A stretch of DNA of 64,000 nucleotides, from positions 124,001 through 188,000 of the IMG/VR virus record IMGVR_UViG_3300026538_000054; one strand, given 5' to 3'. Position numbers and translations under genes: made by a program. The stretch comes from a virus. Positions 2,429 to 61,211 of this stretch are shown piece after piece (the first letter of the stretch is position 1; each line of letters opens with the position of its first letter). The notes below the pieces were generated by a model. It ran no database searches and was not told the origin of the DNA. It saw only the letters and a list, made by a program, of their open reading frames with translations.

Positions 2429-5400
2429 ATGTCCGACGCCTTCGACCAGGCCCAGGCTCAGGCCGGCGCGACCGCCATGAGCTCCACGGAGACCATGGAC
2501 GCGCTCAGGCCCGTGATCGTAGGGCCGCAAGCCGCTCTCTTCCGGAGAAACAACGCCACGGAGAAGGCCCTAAGCGCGCTGGGGCCTTATGTCTCCGGCT
2601 CCGACACCAACTACGACTGGCCCAACAAGCCTGCTGGCGCGGTAGTCGACCTGGCCACTGCGCGGCTCCACGTGGACAACGCGCTACTGCGATACTTCTC
2701 CGACTCCATCGGCGCAGGGGACACCATCGCGCCCGTGGCCAGCCAGGTCTCGCGGGTCAGGGCCGTCGCCACCAGGTGGAAGACCGCCAACGGCTTCACG
2801 CGCACGGCCTCCCTGCTGGACCGTGACGTCAAGGTCGGCGACGCCGTCTATCTCTCTGACGGCTCGAACTCGCTATCTACCAGGGTGCATGACTTCGTGC
2901 CGGAAGTGATCGCCGCGAGCATCGCCGCCGCCACGGCCGACGCGGGCAACTCCGGTACGCAGGGCTCAAGCTCTTCCATCTCGCAGACCTCCGGGACGGT
3001 CAACGACGTTGTCGCTACGCGGTCCATCGCCGCCTACTCGGGGCTCAAGGACGGCGCGATCAACGAGACGTACACCATCATCGTCATCCAGGCCCCGACC
3101 ACGCCGGGCGACGCCACGACGGCCCGTCTCTCCGTCACCAGCTCTTCCGGCCTTGATAATCAGGCGAGCGTCACGCCGGCCCTCTACGGCCGGCCCACGC
3201 CGATCGGCACCCGAGGCGCCACGGTCACCTTCTCGCACACGTCCAGCGACTTCGTGCTCGGGCAGACGTGGTCCTTCGTCATCGCCCAGGCCTTCACGGC
3301 GGTGACCGGCGCCTCGTCCGGGACGTATACGGGCGAGCAAAGTCTCTCGTACATCATCACGGTGACGCGCGGCGGTTACACCAACGCCGCCAGCTCTCCC
3401 ATCGCCAACCCGACCACGCAGGCGACCGTTGCCGTCACGGGCGGCGGCTCTTCGGGAGGCACGCTGCCTGCCGGGGCCTACTTCGTCAGCTACACCTTCA
3501 AGACCACGGAAGGAGAGACCACGGCGGGCACGTCGGAATCGGCGACGTTCACCGTTGCCAGCGGGAACATCCCGCGGGTCACCGTCCCTGCGCTGCCCAA
3601 CGGCGCGGTGTCGATCAATATCTACCTCACCAACACCGCCGGCGGCACGGGCACGGAGAAGCTATACCGCCGGGACATCACCTCTACCACGGTCGACCTG
3701 ACGGACAACGCCTGGGACGGCGGTACGTTCGCCAACAGCACGGCCCCGCCCGGCGCCAGCACCGCTCTGGTCGTGGCTCCGCAGGTGACGGCCGTGGACA
3801 GTACGGGCGTGGACGCCTCCGGCCCGACCGTGGTGCCCCTTTCAGGGGCGGTCTCCATCGGCTCCTTTGGCGTCGTGCTCACCTTCGCCCAGACCAAGAT
3901 GCGCAAGGGCGACATCTTCCACGCCAACGCCACGGCGCAGACGCAAGGGGCCGTGCAGACCCTGGTGCTCGAGGACGCCTTGAGCACGGCCATGCAGGGC
4001 GCTTCGGACCTGACGATCAAGCTCTACATCAAGAAGGACTTCTTCGTCCCCGAGCAAAGGGCTGAGGCCGCGCCGGCCGTCAACTGGTCGGTAAGCGCCA
4101 CGCAAGTCACCGCCAAGGGCGTCATGACGGCCTTCGACTCCTCCTGGACGTCGGGCGGCTCGCAGGCGGCCTTGCCGGTCGAGAGCGGCGACCTTTTCGT
4201 GCAGTACCGGGCCTGGGTGGCTGACAACGCGGGTCAGGTGACGACGGTCAGCACTTCCACGGACCTTCTGGCCAAGCTCGGGACTTACGCCCCGGACAAC
4301 CCTCTCTGCTACGCCGCGGCCAAGTGCCTTCTCAACGCCAACAACACGCCGGTACGGTTCCTCGCCGTCGGCGACCCGAGCATCAAGGCCAACTGGGACG
4401 AGGCCCTGACGATCCTGGACCGGCTCCGAGGCGCTTACGGGATTGTTCCTCTCACCAGGGACCCGGCCGTCCTCACCGCCTTCCGGTCCCACGTGATCGC
4501 CCAGTCGGAGGAAGATGTCCAGTGCTGGCGAACCTGCTGGTGGTCGCCGGCGCAGCAGGTGACCGCCCTTGTCGTGGACGCGACGGTCACCAGCGATAAC
4601 CAGCCGGCCCTGGCCACCCTGGCCGATAACCCGGGCGCCGCCGGCACGCAGTACACGCTCCTCACCTGCACCACGGGAAACGCTAAGTTCGTGACCAATG
4701 GCGTGCGTGCGGGCGATACGGTTCGCTACCTGTTCAGTGTGGACGGCTTCGGCAACAGCTCCTGGAAAGAGTTTCTGGTGGCGAGCGTGGTCAACGAGGA
4801 CCAGCTCATCCTGGACGCGGGCCACACGTCCGCCGTGACCACGGCCCAGAGAGTGGAGATCTGGCGAGACCGAACCAGGACCGAGATCGCCCAGGCCATC
4901 GCCACGCAGATCAGGGCCCAGGCGCATGCCCGCTGGCTGCCCGTCTGGCCGGACGCTCTTCTCGACGGCAACACGAGGGTGGACGGCTTCTTCCTCGCCG
5001 CGGCCCTGGCCGGCCTTGTAGGGGGCGTGCCGCCGCATCAGTCGCTGCTCAACCTCACGGTGGCCGGCTTCACCAAGGAGGCCGGGGGCTTCAACAACGG
5101 CCAGCTCAACGCTCTGGAGGCCGCCGGCTGCTTTACCCTGGTCCCGGATGAGTTCGGCGTTCTGTATCTTCGCAAGGCCCGGACCAGCGATCAGACGAGC
5201 GTGGATACCGGCGAAGAGTCGAACGTGCGCTCTCTGGACGCCATCAAGCTGTTCTTCCAGAACCGGCTCTCGGCGCTCTACGGCAAGACCAACATCGTCG
5301 GCACGGACGTCAGCATCGGGGCCTCGGCCATGGTCAAGACCGAGCTGGCCAGGGCCGTCAGCCACTGCCGCAACGTGGCCAGAGTGGACCGTCTGGGGCC

Positions 5401-48906: not shown

Positions 48907-49986
48907 ATGTTCAATTGCAAGGTCCTGAAGCACAGCCGTCCGCCGGAAGGGCTGGATTTGATCAGCATCGAGTGGGACACGCCGCGCGTGGTCCTGGCGG
49001 AGGCCGTGACGCACAGACGGTCCTCGGACGTCTTCGGCGATTTCGAGCTCGTCTACGCCGAGCGGACCACCACCCAGGGGATGTCCAAGAACAGCGCCAG
49101 CTCCAGGGCCATCCCGCTCTGGAAGATCATCAAGAAGGCCATGGACGATACGTACGTCCCTCAGCGATTCTCCTCGGCCGGCAAGGGCATGCAGGGTGCC
49201 GGCTGGCTGGAGGGCAAGGACCACGAGATCGCCGTCAAGAACTGGCTGCGCCTCAGGGACCAGGCCGTGGTGGCGGCGCTCTCCCTGCTCAACGGGAAGG
49301 ACTGCGCGGAGACCATCCAGAAGGCCGGCCTACACCTGAGGTTCATTCGAGAGCTCGAAGGCCTGCCGGCGCCCGATGTGTCCGTTCACAAGCAGGACGT
49401 GAACCGGTGTCTGGAGCCCTGGCTTTGGGTCACGCAAGCGGTGACGGCGACCATGGACCACTGGTCGAACTTCTTCCATCTGCGATGCCACAGGGCCGCG
49501 CACCCCGCCCTGCGAAAGCTGGCCCGGATGGCCTTCCTGGCGATCAGGGGTAGCAAGCCGCAACAACTGGCCCGCTACCAGTGGCACCTGCCCTACGACG
49601 ATGGTGAGGCCCCGTTCTGGGCCCCGAACCTGGCGACCATCTGGCCGGGCGTCGCCCTGGATGACATTCATCCGCGCGTCAGGGCCAGCGCTGCGCGATG
49701 TGCCTGGGTAAGTTACGAAAATCCCGACAAGGAGGCGACCCAGGAGGCCTGCGACAACACGTTCACCAAGCTGGTCGGTTCTTCACCACTGCACGCCAGT
49801 CCACAAGAACATCAGGCCTGCCCGCCACCGCCGAGCCTCTTCCAGGCCATGCCGCAATACCAAAGCAATCTCACCGGCTGGCTGCAGGCCAGGAAGCTGT
49901 TGCCGCGGGAGGCCGTCAAGGAGTACAGCCCCTCCGACGAACTGGTCGCCTCCTGGGGGCCGGACCTGATGGAAGACGGCCTGTGA
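48907..49986 (+). CDS. thyX: Flavin-dependent thymidylate synthase (ThyX)
   Basis: 359 residues. Conserved pieces: RVVLAEAVTHR, then MSKNSASSRAIP, the substrate-binding core of the ThyX motif, and later VHKQDVNRCLEPWLWVTQAVTATMDHWSNFFHLRCHRAAHPAL, which is typical of phage ThyX. It makes dTMP from dUMP using FAD. The HR of THR and the SxN part of the signature are separated by about 20 extra residues (RSSDVFGDFELVYAERTTTQG), which is unusual and may be a loop insertion. GGAG lies upstream. Confidence 0.8.
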   Translation: MFNCKVLKHSRPPEGLDLISIEWDTPRVVLAEAVTHRRSSDVFGDFELVYAERTTTQGMSKNSASSRAIPLWKIIKKAMDDTYVPQRFSSAGKGMQGAGWLEGKDHEIAVKNWLRLRDQAVVAALSLLNGKDCAETIQKAGLHLRFIRELEGLPAPDVSVHKQDVNRCLEPWLWVTQAVTATMDHWSNFFHLRCHRAAHPALRKLARMAFLAIRGSKPQQLARYQWHLPYDDGEAPFWAPNLATIWPGVALDDIHPRVRASAARCAWVSYENPDKEATQEACDNTFTKLVGSSPLHASPQEHQACPPPPSLFQAMPQYQSNLTGWLQARKLLPREAVKEYSPSDELVASWGPDLMEDGL

Positions 49987-50275: not shown

Positions 50276-50617
50276 AAAGAGAGCACCGTGAGCGAAAAGA
50301 AACAAAGGCCGTGGTCGAGGTTGATTGCTGTCGCCCGCAAGGCGCAGGCGGTCATCCAGGCCGCTAATACCAACCCAATGCACGACGAGTGGGACGACGT
50401 TGAGGCGAAGCAGGCGTTCGAGGACATCGAGTGCGCTCTCGCGGACATCGAGAAAACAGGGCTGAAGACTGACGAGCTGCCCGCCCTGGTGGAGGCGTGC
50501 CAAGCGGGCATCAAGGACTACGAGACGTACATGGACGGCAAGGAGACGTACCCCGAGTACCACCACGCCGCGATCAACCGGATCAGTCGCGCGCTCGACA
50601 AGGTCACTCAACCATAG
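50273..50617 (+). CDS. Hypothetical protein (114 aa)
   Basis: ATG 50273 with GCGAGG upstream; GTG 50288 is an alternative. Helical, charged (RLIAVARKAQAVIQAANTNP; DIECALADIEKTGLKTDELPALVEACQAGI). It is convergent with the terminase gene and overlaps its 3' end by ten bases. No family recognised. Confidence 0.45.
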   Translation: MKESTVSEKKQRPWSRLIAVARKAQAVIQAANTNPMHDEWDDVEAKQAFEDIECALADIEKTGLKTDELPALVEACQAGIKDYETYMDGKETYPEYHHAAINRISRALDKVTQP

Positions 50618-53600
50618 ATCGCGGCGTCGCCGTCGCGCCAGTCAGCCCCTGGTTCATCAGCGCCGCTATGCTGCTCGTTGGCCATGTAGCGACGAGCCGA
50701 GGCCAGGTCAGGCCAGCGGCCCGTGCTCTGCCAGAGAGCGCAGCAACCGATGTTCACCGCCTGGGCGAAATCATCCGGGAACATCGGGCTTCGGATGATC
50801 GTGTAGATGTCCGAGCCGGCGGCGGTAGGCGTCTTGTTCTCGGTGAGCGACAGGAAGTCATGGAGCAGGCCGGGGTCGTCCTTGCTCTTGAAGTCGTACT
50901 TGAAGAACCGCAGGATGCCCAGCTTGATGCAGGCGCAGGTAAGGCCCAGAGACTTCGTCTTGTCCACCTGCCAGTAGGCCCTGGGCCTTTCCGGCGTGGC
51001 CGGCTTGTAGGTCATCGTGTGCTGCCGGGCGGCGCCGATGTAGGCCACGGGGATTACGACGTCGGCGTCCAGCCCCGCCTGGATCAGGAAGGTCTCCCTG
51101 AGGGCCCCTGCGCCCGTGTAGTCGTGGACGAGCAACCTGCAGCCGAACTGCCGCCAGACATCCAGGACGGCCTCGGCCTCTCGCAGGTGGTCATGAGGCG
51201 TTAACAGCCTCTTGCCGTAGATCACGTCGATCTGACCCGACGGCTTGATGCCCATGACGGCCAGCGTGGTGAAGCTGACCCTGTCTTCGCCGCCTCCGCC
51301 CCAGTCCACGGTCAGGATGAGCAGGTCGTAGTTTCTGGCGTGGCGCAGGACCACGGGCGACGGCTCACTGGAGTTTTCCCACTCCAGGCACCCGGCGCGG
51401 ACCAGGTCCGTGATGTTCACGAGCTTGGTGCCCTGGTCGTAGCTCTCGCCCAAACACTCGTTGTAGAACTTGGCCGTGGTGGTGTTGCCGTAGCCGTTCA
51501 TCTTGGCCACGAGGCTAGCCCAGTGGGCCTCGCGGGCGTAGTGAATAGGCAGGATGATTTGCGGTACGTGGTAGCCGGGAAATCGCTTGGCCAGTCTCTC
51601 CACCTTGTGGACCCATCGCCCCAGCCTGGGGTTGACCGGGCGCCCGCACTTCGAGTTGGCGCAGATGATGCCTGGGCTTTCTTCCGAGATGTCATCTCTG
51701 ACCGGTCCAATCATGCGCTCCAGGTCGTAGCCCGCCGCCGGGACGTTGATCTTGTGGCAGACCAGGCACGGGATGCACCACTCCGCCTGGGAACTGCTGG
51801 TCCAGGCCCAGTGCAGGGTGGTGTCCAGGGTCTTGGGCGTCCCGGAGTAGATCTTCGCTCGCCAGGTGCTAGCGGAAATGGTCTCGTTAACGACGGCGAG
51901 AAGACCTGGATCAAAGTTCTGGCAGTTAGACACCCCGATGCCATTCGCCACGAAGGTGTGCGTGCCTTCAACCTCGATGTCGAAGACGTCGTGGACCCCT
52001 ACGTCTTCGATCCGGACGAGGTCGGCCACAGCGAGGCCGTCAGCCGGGTGAACTCGTCCGAGAAGGTCGCTCTCTTCTCCTCGGAAAGGTTGTCTCTCTT
52101 GAGCATCATCCGCAGATAGCTCAGCCGCACCAGCATGACCGCCCGCTTCGGCTTGCAGTCCTGGCAGGACCACTCGGTCGCGCGCGGCAAGCCTGTCTTC
52201 TTGGCCCGGTAGGTGGCCTGGTAAGCCTTGAGCTTCTCTGGGTTCTTCTTGTTCCACGCCGCCTGTTTCGCCCTGACTGCTTCGCGATCGACGGGCCTCG
52301 CCTTTTTCTTCGCTCGCGCGGCCTCCTGCCGTTCCTTGGCTAGAGGATGGGCCTTTTCGTTCGCGTACCAGAGGCGACGTCTGGCGATCAGACAGGAGTC
52401 GCTGCCGCAGCACCAGTAACGGATCTTTTTCTTCCACACCGCCTGGTGGCCCTTTGACGGGAAGTTCTTGCCGCAGAAGTGGCAGTCGGCCGTCTCCACT
52501 CTGCCAGACGTGTCCAGCTTGTAGTACATCGACGGAGGCGTGAAGTCCTCCAGGATGCGCATCAGTCGAACGGCGGAGGACGTTTTGAACATCACCTGGG
52601 GGTAGGTCTTTTCCTTGACCTTGGCCGCGTACGTCGAACACGTGAAACCGTTCGTGAAGATCCGGAGGCCCGGCGTGCAGCCGAGCTTCGTGTGGGAGCC
52701 GTCGTCGGCCACCCACCACGCCAGGGCCTGGAGCAGGTTGGTCTCGTCGATGGCCTTCAGCCACGCCTCCGTGACCGTCTTCACGCCCCCTGGGTAGCAC
52801 AGCTCGCGCCAGTATTTGAGCTCCGAGGTGACGACAGTCCAGAACCTGACCGACCTGTGCCCGAGTTTGTTCTTCTTCGAGAGCGATGGTACGCCAACTA
52901 CGAGCTCGGACAAGCAGATGTACTTGGTCCAGAGGTACTCGGCCTGCTTGGGGCTGTGGTTGATGGCGAAGTAGCCTTCCGGGCTGATGTACCCGTCGCC
53001 CAGCAGCGTCCCCAGAAGCAGGGCCTTCTGCTCCATGTCCAACGGCCTCTTCTTGGCGATCTCGATCTCGGCCAGTCTCGTCTTGCGCTCGTCGGGAGGC
53101 AGCTTCGACGATCTGGGAAACACGAAGCCATCCGGCACTCGTGGCCACGAAAGAGTCTGAAGTAAGGTCAACGTAGGTCCCCTGGGAGGTGTGAAGTCGG
53201 TAGCATCGTCGACGACCGTGCCATGATGATTCCACCACTCGTCGGTAGACGATACGGCCGTCCGGATCGAAAGATTCCACCTGGTCGCCGACAACGACGT
53301 CCCGAATCAAGAGGCGGCCCCTGGAAGTCATGACCCAGGTCGTGTCGCCTCTGGCGCTTTCGTCTATCCCAATTAGCTCAGATGGGATACCGCGGATTCG
53401 CTCAGCGTCGGTGAACGCGTAGGAGCAGAAGATCCTTGAGAAATTGCAGAAGCTGCGCTGGAGGACCGAGTTCTCGGTGTCAGGGCCCACCCAGGCCGAG
53501 CGCAAGGGGCTCGTCTCGATGAAGGGCCTGAGATACTGCGTCGAAAAGCGCCTGATCTGCTCGAAGAGGGGCGTGATGTACAGGACCGAGAAGTGAGGCA

Positions 53601-53874
53601 CCGTGGCGCAGATCAGAAGGCCCTTGGCGGCCAGGGCGTTTGACTTGCCGCATTGCCTGCCGGTCTTCAACACCGTTTCGGGAGGTACGTCCAGGTCGAA
53701 GAACGGCTCGAAAGGAAAATGGTCGTCCAGGCCGTAGGGCTTTCCCTTCAGTCTGAGAAACAGCGGTAGAAAGGGAGCGAAGTTTCCTTCGCCTCCCTGT
53801 GACATGAGGCCTTGGATCTTCTCCATCAGGGCGCTCGCGTCGCCCTGTTCGTTGCTCTGGACCGGATAACTCAT
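50608..53874 (-). CDS. terL: Terminase large subunit interrupted by an intein
   Basis: The precursor is 1088 residues; the terminase alone is ~610, a normal size. Walker A TGRQCGKS is at 71-78. Walker B (LIGIDE) ends at residue 172, then the intein (173-650), then CQNFDPGLL. The C-terminal nuclease half has LLILTVDWGGGGEDRVSF and LLVHDYTGAGALRETF with conserved acidic residues. It would cut concatemers and pump DNA into capsids. The intein interrupts the ATPase site, so splicing is needed. Its start overlaps the divergent gene at CATG. No small subunit gene was recognised. Confidence 0.85.
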   Translation of the reverse strand: MSYPVQSNEQGDASALMEKIQGLMSQGGEGNFAPFLPLFLRLKGKPYGLDDHFPFEPFFDLDVPPETVLKTGRQCGKSNALAAKGLLICATVPHFSVLYITPLFEQIRRFSTQYLRPFIETSPLRSAWVGPDTENSVLQRSFCNFSRIFCSYAFTDAERIRGIPSELIGIDESARGDTTWVMTSRGRLLIRDVVVGDQVESFDPDGRIVYRRVVESSWHGRRRCYRLHTSQGTYVDLTSDSFVATSAGWLRVSQIVEAASRRAQDETGRDRDRQEEAVGHGAEGPASGDAAGRRVHQPGRLLRHQPQPQAGRVPLDQVHLLVRARSWRTIALEEEQTRAQVGQVLDCRHLGAQILARAVLPRGREDGHGGVAEGHRRDQPAPGPGVVGGRRRLPHEARLHAGPPDLHERFHVFDVRGQGQGKDLPPGDVQNVLRRSTDAHPGGLHASVDVLQAGHVWQSGDGRLPLLRQELPVKGPPGGVEEKDPLLVLRQRLLSDRQTSPLVRERKGPSSSQGTAGGRASEEKGEARRSRSSQGETGGVEQEEPREAQGLPGHLPGQEDRLAARDRVVLPGLQAEAGGHAGAAELSADDAQERQPFRGEESDLLGRVHPADGLAVADLVRIEDVGVHDVFDIEVEGTHTFVANGIGVSNCQNFDPGLLAVVNETISASTWRAKIYSGTPKTLDTTLHWAWTSSSQAEWCIPCLVCHKINVPAAGYDLERMIGPVRDDISEESPGIICANSKCGRPVNPRLGRWVHKVERLAKRFPGYHVPQIILPIHYAREAHWASLVAKMNGYGNTTTAKFYNECLGESYDQGTKLVNITDLVRAGCLEWENSSEPSPVVLRHARNYDLLILTVDWGGGGEDRVSFTTLAVMGIKPSGQIDVIYGKRLLTPHDHLREAEAVLDVWRQFGCRLLVHDYTGAGALRETFLIQAGLDADVVIPVAYIGAARQHTMTYKPATPERPRAYWQVDKTKSLGLTCACIKLGILRFFKYDFKSKDDPGLLHDFLSLTENKTPTAAGSDIYTIIRSPMFPDDFAQAVNIGCCALWQSTGRWPDLASARRYMANEQHSGADEPGADWRDGDAAIYG
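51925..53358 (-). mobile_element. Terminase intein with an out-of-frame endonuclease domain
   Basis: 1,434 nt inserted after the Walker B GIDE. The 5' part in the terminase frame begins SARGDTTWVMTSRGR (block A) and continues to TSDSFVATSAGWLRVSQIV (block B). The 3' part, also in frame, has RIEDVGVHDVFDIEVEGTHTF and ends GVSN before Cys (block F/G). The LAGLIDADG domain between them (51999-53036) reads in the +1 frame. Start Ser, end Asn + Cys fit a Ser-initiated intein. Confidence 0.8.
51999..53036 (-). CDS. LAGLIDADG homing endonuclease in a shifted frame inside the intein
   Basis: Frame is +1 relative to the terminase. Residues MEQKALLLGTLLGDGYISPEG show the LAGLIDADG-type motif, and WWVADDGSHTKLG later is a second active-site-like motif. 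Zinc-type Cys pairs (CHFCGKN and CCGSDSC) follow. Nearly all codons end in G or C here, so this frame is truly coding. The ATG at 53036 has GAAGAGG about nine bases upstream; the frame is open further upstream to 53294. It could be a free-standing endonuclease translated within the terminase mRNA, or the domain of an intein split by two frame changes. Confidence 0.7.
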   Translation of the reverse strand: MEQKALLLGTLLGDGYISPEGYFAINHSPKQAEYLWTKYICLSELVVGVPSLSKKNKLGHRSVRFWTVVTSELKYWRELCYPGGVKTVTEAWLKAIDETNLLQALAWWVADDGSHTKLGCTPGLRIFTNGFTCSTYAAKVKEKTYPQVMFKTSSAVRLMRILEDFTPPSMYYKLDTSGRVETADCHFCGKNFPSKGHQAVWKKKIRYWCCGSDSCLIARRRLWYANEKAHPLAKERQEAARAKKKARPVDREAVRAKQAAWNKKNPEKLKAYQATYRAKKTGLPRATEWSCQDCKPKRAVMLVRLSYLRMMLKRDNLSEEKRATFSDEFTRLTASLWPTSSGSKT

Positions 53875-55045: not shown

Positions 55046-55762
55046 ATGACCGACGGTGACGTGATCCTCCGCGCGGTCCTCGCCAGTCCGGGGGACGACC
55101 TGACACGCCTGGCTTACGCGGACTGGCTGGAAGAGAGCGGCGAGCTGCCGCGGGCGGAGCTCATTCGCGTGCAGTTGGAAGAGGCGAGATTGCACGTTTG
55201 TGACTGCGCACCGTCGCTGTTTGTCCAGCCTGGTTGTGCAACCTGTGCCGTGGTGAAACCGCTGCGACGTAAAGCGCACAAACTGTTGCTGGGCCTGACC
55301 CACCACTTCAGGCCGCTGACGGGCTACTCCTGGTCCGTGCTCGGTCGCATGCCTGACGGTGACACGCCTGGCAGCCACGTTCGTCGCGGCTGCGTCGAAT
55401 CCGTCCGCCTGTCCTGCGACGAGTTTCTCAGCCACGCCGAGGCCATATTCGGGCAGCACCCGGTTACGAAGGTGTTGCTGTCAGATTTGAGTCCCCTCTA
55501 TAACGTCTGCGGCCTTTGGCCGGCCGGCTACATAGACCCTTCGGATGCGGATCGGGCTGGATGGCTGTTGCGCAAGGGGACGAGGGATGAGTTCTCCTTG
55601 CCAGCCGTCCTGTTTGACTTGCTGCCGCCCGCGCCGCTTGTTTCCTCCCCGGGGTGCTGGGCGTGCAGCGAAGAGGCTGACGCTCTTACCGCCCTCTCCA
55701 TCGCCTGCATCCGCTACGGCCGAGGAATTGTCGGCCTGCCGCCCTTGGAGCTTGAAGCATGA
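55046..55762 (+). CDS. TIGR02996 domain protein (238 aa)
   Basis: ATG 55046. MTDGDVILRAVLASPGDDLTRLAYADWLEESGELPRAELIRVQLEEARL is a clear TIGR02996 (YADWLEE core). Residues ~50-75 contain a Cys cluster (HVCDCAPSLFVQPGCATC). The rest is unique. Strongest single marker for a Gemmata-type host in this window. Its activity is unknown. Confidence 0.75.
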   Translation: MTDGDVILRAVLASPGDDLTRLAYADWLEESGELPRAELIRVQLEEARLHVCDCAPSLFVQPGCATCAVVKPLRRKAHKLLLGLTHHFRPLTGYSWSVLGRMPDGDTPGSHVRRGCVESVRLSCDEFLSHAEAIFGQHPVTKVLLSDLSPLYNVCGLWPAGYIDPSDADRAGWLLRKGTRDEFSLPAVLFDLLPPAPLVSSPGCWACSEEADALTALSIACIRYGRGIVGLPPLELEA

Positions 55763-57388: not shown

Positions 57389-59341
57389 ATGTTCATCTCA
57401 GCCGATGGCGGCGCGTCAGGCGCCGCTTCGGGCCTTTGCGTCGATAGCGGCCACGACCCGTTCGTGACGCCGCTTCAGAAGTTCCAATTCATCGACAAGT
57501 ACGCCCGTTGGCGGGAAGACCTGGGCCGACGGGAGACCTGGCCCGAGTGCTGTAACAGGGTGATCTCCTGGTTCCGCAAGCACCATCACCTGAGGGCCGT
57601 GGATGAAGCGACCTGGAGAGAGCTCCACCAGGGGATGTTCGAGCTGGAGGCGTCTCCCGCTATGCGGGTGGTCCAGATGGCCGGGCCGGCGTTGGATCGG
57701 TGCAATATTGGCTCCTATAACTGCAGTGCCGCCAACGTGGACTGCCTGGAGGTGTTTCCCGAGGCCCTGTACATCCTGATGCAGGGCTCTGGCTTCGGGT
57801 TCAGTGTCGAGAAAGAGCTGGTTGACCAGTTGCCCGTGGTCAAGAAGCAGCAGGGCGGCCCCAAGGAGCTCTTCGTCGTCCCGGACACCACGGAGGGTTG
57901 GTGCAACGCCCTGAAGTACGGGCTGGAGCTTTGGTTCAGCGGACGGGACATCGAGTACGACTTCTCCTTGATCAGACCGGCTGGCTCCAAGCTCAAAACC
58001 AAGGGTGGTACGGCGTCGGGCCCCGGTCCTTTGCGCAAAATGCTGCGCTTCGTCCGACAGATCGTCCTCTCCAGACAGGGAGAGAAACTCAGGCCGATCG
58101 ACTGCCACGACATGCTGTGCATGATCGGCAAGATCGTTCAGGTGGGGGGCGTGCGACGCGCTAGTGAGCTCTCCCTGTCAGACCCTGATGACGCAGAGAT
58201 GCGCAACGCCAAGACCGGGGCCTGGTGGGAGCACGCCCCCTGGCGCGACATGGCGAATATCAGCGCTGCCTATGAAGGAACGCCGAGCAGAGAGGAGTTC
58301 GACAGGGAGTGGGACGCACTCAGGCGGTCGGGGTCGGGCGAGAGAGGCATCTTCAACCGGAAGGCGGCACGGATGCTTGCGCCGGCCAGAAGGTTAATAG
58401 TTAAGTTTATCCTTAACCCGTGTGCTGAGATTCTGTTAAGAAGTTTAGGTTTGTGCAACTTGAGCATAACCGTTGCGCGACACAGAGATAACTATACCAG
58501 CCTCCGGCGCAAGGTACGACTCGCGGCCATCTTCGGCACCATCCAGGCCACCTTCACGAAGTTCCGCTACGTGAGAGACGGCTGGCGCATCAACGCGACG
58601 GAGGAGGCCCTGATTGGCGTAGACGTGACCGGTCAGATGGACTGCCCTCTTCTCAGGCCGGGTGCGCCAGGACGGACCGAATTGGTCAAAGACCTCAAGG
58701 AAGAGGTCCTCAGGGTCAACGAGACGTGGGCGAGGAAGCTGGGCATCAACCGAGCGGCGGCGGCCACCTGCGTCAAGCCGTCAGGCAATTCGGCGGCCTT
58801 CTTCAACTGCCGCTCAGGCATCCATGTCGGCTTCGCCAAACACCAGCTCAGGCGCGTGCGCGTCGCCAAGGTCAACCCGGTCGGCAAGCTCCTGGTCGCG
58901 CAGGGAGTGCCCTACGCCGAGGACCCGCTCAACGACTCTCTCTGGGTCTTCGACTTCGTGCCGCCGCCCCTCCCCGAAGGCACGCCGGACCGGAACGCCA
59001 TGACGGCCGTCGAGCAGTTCCACAACTGGCTGTTCTGGCGTGAGACGTGGGCTGAACACTCGGTGAGTTGTACGATCTATGTCGGCGAGGAAGAGTGGGG
59101 GCCTCTGGGCGAGGAGGTCTACAAGCACTTCGACAAGGTGACGGGGCTGAGCTTCCTTCCCAGGTCCAACGGGTCCTACAAGCTCGCGCCTAACGAGGAG
59201 ATCTCCCAGGAGGAGCACGAGCGCCTCACCAGGGAGTTCCCGGTCATCGACTGGTCGCAGTTGTCCCTCTACGAGAAAGAGGACAACACCACGAGCGCGC
59301 AGGAGCTCGCCTGCACGGCCAACGGATGTGATCTGTTCTGA
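57389..59341 (+). CDS. Class II (B12-dependent) ribonucleoside-triphosphate reductase
   Basis: 650 residues. NPCAEI at 343-348 carries the catalytic cysteine, with CNLS nearby; NCSAAN at 111-116 carries the first Cys; the C-terminus has a paired Cys (ACTANGCDLF) for re-reduction. RPAGSKLKTKGGTASGPGPL and GVRRASELSLSDPDDAEM match the monomeric RTPR type. It converts NTPs to dNTPs using adenosylcobalamin and would work with ThyX. About 78 bases over the NPCAEI region (58393-58470) are markedly AT-richer than the rest. Confidence 0.85.
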   Translation: MFISADGGASGAASGLCVDSGHDPFVTPLQKFQFIDKYARWREDLGRRETWPECCNRVISWFRKHHHLRAVDEATWRELHQGMFELEASPAMRVVQMAGPALDRCNIGSYNCSAANVDCLEVFPEALYILMQGSGFGFSVEKELVDQLPVVKKQQGGPKELFVVPDTTEGWCNALKYGLELWFSGRDIEYDFSLIRPAGSKLKTKGGTASGPGPLRKMLRFVRQIVLSRQGEKLRPIDCHDMLCMIGKIVQVGGVRRASELSLSDPDDAEMRNAKTGAWWEHAPWRDMANISAAYEGTPSREEFDREWDALRRSGSGERGIFNRKAARMLAPARRLIVKFILNPCAEILLRSLGLCNLSITVARHRDNYTSLRRKVRLAAIFGTIQATFTKFRYVRDGWRINATEEALIGVDVTGQMDCPLLRPGAPGRTELVKDLKEEVLRVNETWARKLGINRAAAATCVKPSGNSAAFFNCRSGIHVGFAKHQLRRVRVAKVNPVGKLLVAQGVPYAEDPLNDSLWVFDFVPPPLPEGTPDRNAMTAVEQFHNWLFWRETWAEHSVSCTIYVGEEEWGPLGEEVYKHFDKVTGLSFLPRSNGSYKLAPNEEISQEEHERLTREFPVIDWSQLSLYEKEDNTTSAQELACTANGCDLF

Positions 59342-59676: not shown

Positions 59677-60203
59677 GGAGCGGCCCTCAAACCTGGGGGA
59701 TGCGCGGGCGGAGCAGCACCCAACAAAGACGGCTCGGCGGTGTCAGCGGTTCGCGTCGCCTGGCAGCCCTCCCGATGGTCAGCGTACCAGCGCCTGCCGC
59801 GGCGCCAACGGCCACTCCGGACAGCCTCCTGGGGCTTCCCCGGGCGGGCCTGTCGGTCCGCGCGCCCGCTTGCGGATAATGCCCTTTGGCGGGCCTGCCG
59901 GCATCCGCCCGGCCGGCCGGCGAGGGTGTAGGGGACGCTCGCGCCGGCCCCCGTTTTGCGCGCACAGGGGGAGGGGTGGGCCAGGGGGACGGCGGCAGCG
60001 TTCATGATCGAGGCCGGCCGCCAGAGGGCAAGGCGCAAAGGGAAGGCCGGCCAGTCCGTCTATAAGCATTATCCGCAGGACAACATTCCGCCGCTGCGCA
60101 TGACCACTCGCCCCAGCCGCCTCTCGGTTGCCGTGCGGTCGCTCCGCCTTTACAATCCCGACTGGTAGCGAGCGGGATGTGGCCCGCTTGGAGCGAGTGG
60201 TCG
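59677..60203. other. Non-coding-looking GC-rich stretch before purE
   Basis: About 500 bases without a convincing gene, in contrast to the packed phage regions. Short open stretches lack coding bias. It suggests a host-derived segment containing purE. Nothing else was recognised. Confidence 0.45.
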
Positions 60204-61211
60204 ATGTTGGAGGCGACAGTGGAAGAGATTGCGGCGGAGACGGACAATCGGGTCGTCGGCCTCGTCATGGGGAGCGACTCCGACTTAAAGACCATGCGCC
60301 ACGCCGCCGACGCCCTGAAGGACCTCGGGGTCAAATGCGATGTGCAAGTCCGCTCCGCGCACCGCAGCCCCGATTACTTGTTCGAGTATGCCAACGAGGC
60401 GGAAGGGAAAGGCCTGGCCTTGATCATCGCCGGTGCCGGCGGGGCGGCTCACCTGCCGGGGATGACGGCGTCGAAGACAATCGTGCCCGTCATCGGCGTG
60501 CCCGTGGTCGCTACCCCGCTGCGCGGCGTGGACGCCCTGCTGTCTATCATGCAGATGCCCGCCGAGGTCGGAGTCGCGACGGTAGGCATCGGGCCTGCCG
60601 GCGCCGACCGCGCCGCGCGCTTTGCCGCCTCGATCCTCGCCCTTGAGAACGACGCCTTGCGCGCCCGTCTGGCCGCCGGCCGGCCGGACCTCCCGCCTGG
60701 GCGGCCGGGAAAGAACCAGTTTCGAGCCAGGAAGGTGGTTGTGCTTGCCGAGAGGGGGCCGCAGCACGAGGTTCTTCGGCACGCATCGGGTCACTTTGAA
60801 AAGCTCGGGGTGCTTCACGACTTTCGCGTAGTTGGGGAGACGGTCACGGATCTCGAACTGTCGCGCGCCGTGGCGAAGGACGAGGACGAAGGGGCGGCGG
60901 CCTTCATCGCGGGGTCGGATCAAGGGATCGGCCTGGCCTGCAGGGTGGCCCGCGCGACGCTACTGCCCGTCCTCGCCGTTCCCATCGTGACCGGGCAAGT
61001 CGCCTCGATCGACCGATTCGTGCAGCCGTTCATGGAGATGCCGCCGGGGGTTGCGACTTTCGCGATCGGCCGGCCTGGCGCGATCAACGCCGCCCTGTTC
61101 GCCGCGACCTTCCTGTCGCCGCCCGTGTCCCCGCTCAGGGACAGCCTCAAGAAAATGCGCGAGGAGCAGGAACGGCGGGTCCGCGCCATGAATGAACATC
61201 TGCCGCGGTAA
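60204..61211 (+). CDS. purE: PurE-like protein with tandem domains (AIR/N5-CAIR mutase family)
   Basis: ATG 60204 (ATG 60177 is alternative); 335 residues. Domain 1 has MGSDSDLKTMRHAADAL, SAHRSPDYLFEYA, and the catalytic-site GAGGAAHLPGM. Domain 2 (~175-335) repeats the fold in diverged form (LAERGPQHEVLRHASGHFEKLG; IAGSDQGIGLACRVARAT) and lacks the HRSP motif. It would catalyse a step of purine synthesis; the second half may be structural or regulatory. The stop overlaps the next start (TAATG). Confidence 0.8.
   Translation: MLEATVEEIAAETDNRVVGLVMGSDSDLKTMRHAADALKDLGVKCDVQVRSAHRSPDYLFEYANEAEGKGLALIIAGAGGAAHLPGMTASKTIVPVIGVPVVATPLRGVDALLSIMQMPAEVGVATVGIGPAGADRAARFAASILALENDALRARLAAGRPDLPPGRPGKNQFRARKVVVLAERGPQHEVLRHASGHFEKLGVLHDFRVVGETVTDLELSRAVAKDEDEGAAAFIAGSDQGIGLACRVARATLLPVLAVPIVTGQVASIDRFVQPFMEMPPGVATFAIGRPGAINAALFAATFLSPPVSPLRDSLKKMREEQERRVRAMNEHLPR

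Follow-up and report, generated by a model that had tools for sequence, protein, structure and literature searches.

The terminase gene and its intein

The window (the whole 64-kb stretch of DNA analysed here, from the IMG/VR record IMGVR_UViG_3300026538_000054) carries on its minus strand a terminase (TerL) open reading frame of 1088 aa, at 50608-53874, identified by its match to phrog_675 (E 5.6e-39). The gene contains an intein of 478 aa, which runs from 53358 down to 51925 (residues 173-650) and is inserted in the conserved Walker B motif at DE^CQ (the caret marks the junction), the two junctions reading GIDE^SARGD...GIGVSN^CQNFDP. A first-pass annotation, made from the sequence alone, had placed an intein at 51925-53358. 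Here, the boundaries were set using empty-site homologues, which are about 50% identical to the window TerL, with the N-extein aligned to 12 intein-less TerL loci; the borders proposed earlier prove to be exact (Table 1).

The exteins and both splicing halves are in the terminase frame (frame 0), and so are the matches to Hint, Intein_splicing and intein_Cterm. The first two of these are weak; intein_Cterm (TIGR01443) scores 29.5 bits against a cut-off of 15.6. There is no frame-0 stop anywhere in the intein. The splicing nucleophiles Ser1 and Cys+1 and the terminal Asn478 can be read from the sequence. The block B TxxH and the penultimate His are absent, the window intein having TSDS and SN, and alignment shows the block B change also in two other phage loci, L189 and L194. 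Both features are known to vary in some inteins, and we have not treated these departures as excluding the element from the inteins. With Ser for the block B His and Ser-Asn for His-Asn, its capacity to splice is not assured. The inteins of the window (53160-53358), L189 and L194 form a clade with Ser1, TxxS in place of TxxH, and S, P or A as the penultimate residue, and the L189 intein ends in Gln ahead of Cys+1. The splicing chemistry of this clade appears atypical.

Table 1. Features of the window terminase locus, and two split inteins from other phages. Positions are those of the window unless a locus is named.
Feature	Position	Strand	Basis or remark
N-extein of TerL, up to Walker B 'GIDE'	53359..53874	-	PF05876/PF03237 weak; phrog_675, phrog_2
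Intein, 478 aa in frame 0	51925..53358	-	empty-site homologues; intein_Cterm; AlphaFold Hint halves
N-terminal splicing half, blocks A and B, frame 0	53089..53358	-	pLDDT; homology to L015, L189, L194
Frame-0 filler, open, without recognisable domain	52027..53088	-	pLDDT ~30; between-phage identity
C-terminal splicing half, blocks F and G, frame 0	51925..52026	-	TIGR01443; pLDDT of last 28 residues
C-extein of TerL, nuclease part and stop	50608..51924	-	phrog_675; 46-56% identity to intein-less IMG/VR relatives
LAGLIDADG_2 homing endonuclease gene, +1 frame, 390 aa	51999..53171	-	PF03161; model; TTG 53171 is the inferred start; stop 51999-52001
Endonuclease core, motifs LLGTLLGDG and AWWVADDGS intact	52404..53039	-	alignments; invariant Asp in both
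ATG, possible internal start, AGAGG 9 nt upstream	53034..53036	-	sequence; less likely main start
AGGGG, weak candidate ribosome site, 7 nt before TTG 53171	53179..53183	-	sequence; not above background in scan
Split helicase intein with overlapping LAGLIDADG_2, Ymer	L138 2183-3085		
Split helicase intein with overlapping LAGLIDADG_2, AN_ECEAS	L227 2477-3352		

Elsewhere in the window there are phage-encoded genes for thymidylate synthase (48907-49986), ribonucleotide reductase (57389-59341) and a PurE-like AIR carboxylase (60177-61211, E 2.8e-72), and a DDE transposase (PF01609, 41517-42893) lies within the phage record. A TIGR02996 domain at 55046-55762 (57.7 bits), named for Gemmata obscuriglobus, hints at a planctomycete host.

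An endonuclease in the +1 frame

The match to the LAGLIDADG_2 family (PF03161; E 1.8e-16, 61.0 bits, cut-off 25) is found only in the +1 frame, in an ORF that is open from 51999 to 53294. The domain matches therefore divide by frame, as the first-pass annotation had described, with the splicing blocks in the terminase frame, the LAGLIDADG domain in the +1 frame, and the terminase frame open across the ~1.4 kb. Two intact coding frames overlap here. It had also been observed that almost all +1 codons in the middle region end in G or C, and a per-frame analysis of codon bias bears this out: GC3 is ~0.9 for frame 0 in most of the exteins, the high frame becomes +1 (~0.85-0.95) from ~53080 to ~52040, and it then returns to frame 0. 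GC by codon position in the endonuclease (0.52/0.47/0.86) is close to that in the C-extein (0.58/0.47/0.86).

The AlphaFold model of the +1 endonuclease has a pLDDT of 83.1, with residues 11-150 mostly near 95. The nearest solved folds identified by Foldseek are I-WcaI and I-SceI (6x1j and 1r7m, E ~1e-6), so that the model has the I-SceI-like fold of a LAGLIDADG_2 enzyme. For the frame-0 intein, AlphaFold predicts two Hint halves (pLDDT ~67-92 for residues 1-90 and 73-87 for the last 28 residues), flanking a filler of pLDDT ~30, and the ends of the model match the gp41-1 intein (Foldseek E 9e-6) and other inteins. The model is suggestive of a disordered filler, at a low alignment depth (7 sequences).

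Endonucleases of the PF03161 family are also found in introns (MarsHill), and the element could be imagined as a self-splicing RNA intron that carries an endonuclease gene and is open in frame 0 by accident. Searches against Rfam found no catalytic intron RNA in the window stretch at E<=1, nor any match at the gathering score in eight related loci, and the element is not assigned to the group I or II introns. Since the Hint halves are encoded in frame 0 on both flanks, we regard an RNA intron as extremely improbable.

The same arrangement in other phages

The arrangement is found in 11 further phage intein loci, each with an endonuclease in another frame and the frame of the host gene open. 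Ten of these are TerL genes with the endonuclease in +1 (L015, L123, L125, L128, L131, L189, L194, L196, L197 and L200). The eleventh is the helicase of the cultured Xanthomonas phage FoX3 (MT161383), with the endonuclease in +2; the offset is +1 in the remaining 11 of the 12 loci. The GC content of these loci ranges from 34 to 59%. The FoX3 endonuclease and the two ends of its intein all exceed their curated cut-offs, and the frame of the endonuclease differs from that of the intein ends. The RefSeq copy of this helicase (L099 1896-4262, NC_055837) is labelled 'head morphogenesis', and its nested endonuclease is unannotated.

The TerL of L015 is 35% identical to that of the window and comes from a much more AT-rich phage, and it carries a homologous intein at the same site. 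Its LAGLIDADG stretch, again in +1, is cut to 92 aa, with frame 0 open. The insertion site of the window intein is also that of L189 and L194, while L131 and L200 have theirs at others. Two of the genes hold a second intein. In L015 this lies at Walker A (2868-3914, GRQVAK^C...THN^S) with an endonuclease apparently in frame, so that one TerL has an in-frame endonuclease at Walker A and an out-of-frame one at Walker B. In L200, the intein at ~3130-3900 is apparently in frame and that at ~4300-5350 has the out-of-frame endonuclease. In L014, around 5228, the TerL lacks ~38 codons and the frame shifts from one matched stretch to the next, possibly an assembly error or a broken gene.

A direct search of IMG/VR with the window endonuclease alone returned no relatives, and profiles were required. 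Profile scans for TerL and the intein C-terminus recovered just one more intein at the window's insertion site, that of L015; the other nine nested TerL loci, and FoX3, came from scans with endonuclease profiles. A profile of the L123, L125 and L128 endonucleases found no match in bacterial and archaeal genomes; an alignment of all the endonuclease types was too diverse for genome scanning.

Because the window comes from an IMG/VR record, an error in sequencing or in assembly of the metagenomic contig has to be considered, and the first-pass annotation had named two indel errors in assembly as what would refute its reading. However, the same layout recurs in independent assemblies (L131, L132 and L133 are identical, and L125 and L126 are 99.98% identical), in divergent phages and in the cultured FoX3, and the codon bias tracks the frames. 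An error of this kind is excluded for practical purposes, its likelihood being negligible.

Selection on the two frames

Synonymous codons were permuted within each endonuclease, keeping its protein sequence and codon usage, and the resulting stops in the host frame were counted. Over the 12 loci ~134 stops are expected and none is observed. For the window alone the expectation is 5.4 (P ~0.001), and for the others it is 12.2 (L189), 15.0 (L194), 3.8 (L015), 27.4 (L131), 12.2 (L123), 10.8 (L125), 11.5 (L128), 14.6 (L196), 4.8 (L197), 13.1 (L200) and 3.3 (FoX3). The third frame of the same loci has the expected number of stops, and freestanding relatives of the endonuclease (n=21) have at least 6 stops in each off-frame. 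The clear conclusion is that the open host frame is maintained by selection.

What the filler encodes is a different matter. In the interior of the overlap, the host-frame identity between relatives is about what conservation of the endonuclease forces, and the most variable codon positions of the endonuclease are its own third positions. Host-frame identity exceeds this level where the endonuclease overlaps the splicing halves, as in the first 40 residues of window/L189 (0.41 vs 0.25) and the last part of L123/L128 (0.37 vs 0.20); some of the locus pairs compared lack this excess at the ends. On these alignments, the sequence content of the filler is mostly not maintained by selection.

These results bear on the two explanations offered by the first-pass annotation, namely a pair of compensating frame changes or a separate, overprinted gene. 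Under the former, the intein was once of the usual in-frame type, and two indels threw its endonuclease out of frame, as a dead remnant, and restored the terminase frame. In-frame inteins with the same endonuclease family do exist (L100, L142, L201 and L221), and the L015 endonuclease has decayed to its present length with frame 0 still open. However, the window endonuclease frame is intact, with phage-typical codon use and both catalytic motifs; the enzyme is conserved across genomes of widely different GC content, varying most at its own third positions; and in most loci its ORF becomes open only at the start of the gene itself. Such features would not persist in a relic, and we consider the indel explanation unsupported and very unlikely. 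The separate gene is favoured by the eleven further loci, the avoidance of stops, the predicted fold and the occurrence in a cultured phage.

Initiation of the nested endonucleases

In the window, the first-pass annotation took ATG 53036, with a ribosome site of its own, as the start of the endonuclease. This codon stands as a possible internal start but is probably not the main one, because homologues share ~45 more N-terminal residues of +1 frame ahead of it. The start is probably upstream, at TTG 53171 or a codon near it, since the +1 stretch that precedes ATG 53036 is conserved (window SWPRVPDGFVFPRSSKLPPDE, L189 TWPQIPDAFEYRNSSKLPPE, L194 GWAQPPDVLEFPRSSKLSPT) and is modelled confidently by AlphaFold. 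Ribosome-site support in the window is weak for both candidates.

More generally, ribosome sites are strong in L123, L125 and L128, moderate in L189 and L194, and weak in the window, and the scan found none in L015, L196 and L200. The signal is uneven between loci and is given little weight here. The three loci that lack a site, together with the predominance of the +1 relation, could be taken to indicate programmed ribosomal frameshifting that joins the N-half of the intein to the endonuclease, with one shift in and perhaps one out. Against this, the offset in FoX3 is +2, and the endonuclease has a start codon, often a strong ribosome site, and its own stop. Furthermore, the endonuclease frame has a stop within ~51 nt before the start in 10 of the 12 loci, which favours internal initiation. 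We therefore think frameshifting unlikely.

Mobility and origin

FoX1, FoX2, FoX5, Murka and M29 lack 942 bp that FoX3 carries at GATGA(A/G)^TGT. The insertion is clean, and the matched sequences on its two sides are 97-99.5% identical between FoX3 and these relatives. This fits a recent homing event.

The helicase intein is split in five Pectobacterium phages (Ymer, Koroua, Abuela, Sabo and Amona) and in the Escherichia phages AN_ECEAS and ES. A stop ends the N-half, a new start opens the C-half without a change of frame, and both halves are overlapped by a PF03161 gene that is read in a different frame. Ymer and AN_ECEAS were examined closely for this layout; the other five phages were recognised by tblastn match only. 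The split inteins look like nested loci in which the filler frame is no longer open, a change that we read as running from nested to split.

In a tree of 52 endonucleases the out-of-frame members are scattered, requiring 6 changes, with weak deep branches. A single clade of out-of-frame endonucleases gives an AU p of 0.015, and one origin is disfavoured, subject to the same weakness of the deep branches. Besides the tree, the fact that the elements occupy two host genes, at several sites, and use two frames points to repeated origin, and it is likely that a freestanding endonuclease gene invaded a mini-intein more than once. A preference for +1 would follow because the first base of the host codon is then the wobble base of the enzyme, and stops can be purged silently. 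Whether all of this amounts to a recurrent class, in which freestanding LAGLIDADG_2 genes invaded mini-inteins out of frame, mostly in +1, and loss of the filler frame then produced split inteins, is a proposal on which we are evenly balanced. If true, the steps by which a mini-intein becomes mobile and then split would be open to direct observation.

Proposed function

We consider it highly probable that the window holds a TerL intein together with a homing endonuclease encoded by a gene of its own, overprinted in +1. We infer that the element is expressed, splices, initiates internally, cleaves and homes in the following way. Reading of frame 0 through the whole locus would give a TerL-intein precursor, in which the two Hint halves would meet around a disordered, throw-away linker and excise, leaving functional TerL. 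Reading of +1 from an internal start would give a free I-SceI-like LAGLIDADG endonuclease, which would cleave terminase alleles without the intein at DE^(C/V)Q; repair of the cut allele would copy in the entire element. The wobble bases of the endonuclease are selected to keep frame 0 free of stops, and the filler need only be stop-free because the intein removes it.

A protein-splicing element can in this way shelter an overlapping gene, of up to ~420 codons, almost free of cost for an essential protein, because the nonsense peptide read through the second gene is cut out with the intein. The acquisition of endonucleases by inteins and the origin of split inteins have long been debated, mostly on the evidence of in-frame fusions. 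An intein and endonuclease that are united in the genome and apart in the protein look like a stage in a recent or repeated assembly. Nested endonucleases are probably under-counted, since standard annotation hides them, as in FoX3. This cultured phage, with near-identical sister phages that have no intein, opens both homing and dual coding to testing.

Comparison with known systems

Split inteins are known from fractured phage genes in which a freestanding endonuclease separates the two halves, and the Pectobacterium and Escherichia phages above show this kind of arrangement with an overlapping PF03161 gene. As in these, the endonuclease here is encoded apart from the splicing halves; unlike these, the window host frame is unbroken, and splicing would consequently be in cis. 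The window element resembles the canonical large inteins (PI-SceI, and here L142, L201 and L221) in having Hint halves around a LAGLIDADG domain and in its insertion in a conserved motif. It is not a canonical intein-endonuclease fusion, its endonuclease being the product of the +1 frame rather than that of the splicing halves, and so lying outside the spliced-out polypeptide. The freestanding LAGLIDADG_2 enzyme PVPSE1 gp17 belongs to the same Pfam family and, like several of the nested ones, has only a few residues ahead of its first LAGLIDADG motif. Genes of this type are not nested and their off-frames are filled with stops, whereas the window endonuclease is nested and frame 0 is open.

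The closest parallel in the literature is the ShiLan element, in which a phage methylase gene harbours an HNH gene out of frame and splicing domains are lacking (PMC11855218), beside which phage Applejack has also been named (PMC12613952). The authors of the ShiLan study found neither intein splicing motifs nor an intron; the insert is thought to be retained in the protein, and it lies in a non-essential gene (PMC11855218). In the ShiLan and window elements alike, the host gene is interrupted yet open in its own frame, the endonuclease gene is nested in a different one, and both appear to spread in the manner of a homing element. In contrast to ShiLan, the window insert is an intein in an essential gene and its enzyme is of the LAGLIDADG_2 type; with Hint halves present and a LAGLIDADG enzyme, it is not placed among the ShiLan-type inserts. 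In the literature searched here, nothing beyond ShiLan describes such an arrangement. On overlapping frames in actinophages the ShiLan paper refers to Gosselin et al. 2025 (PMC11855218), and that work (10.1101/2025.01.02.630785) may contain an earlier report of out-of-frame intein endonucleases. Conditional on Gosselin et al. 2025 and on Gorbalenya 1998 as regards its novelty, the arrangement described here is a new architectural variant of inteins, one that is real, selected and recurrent.
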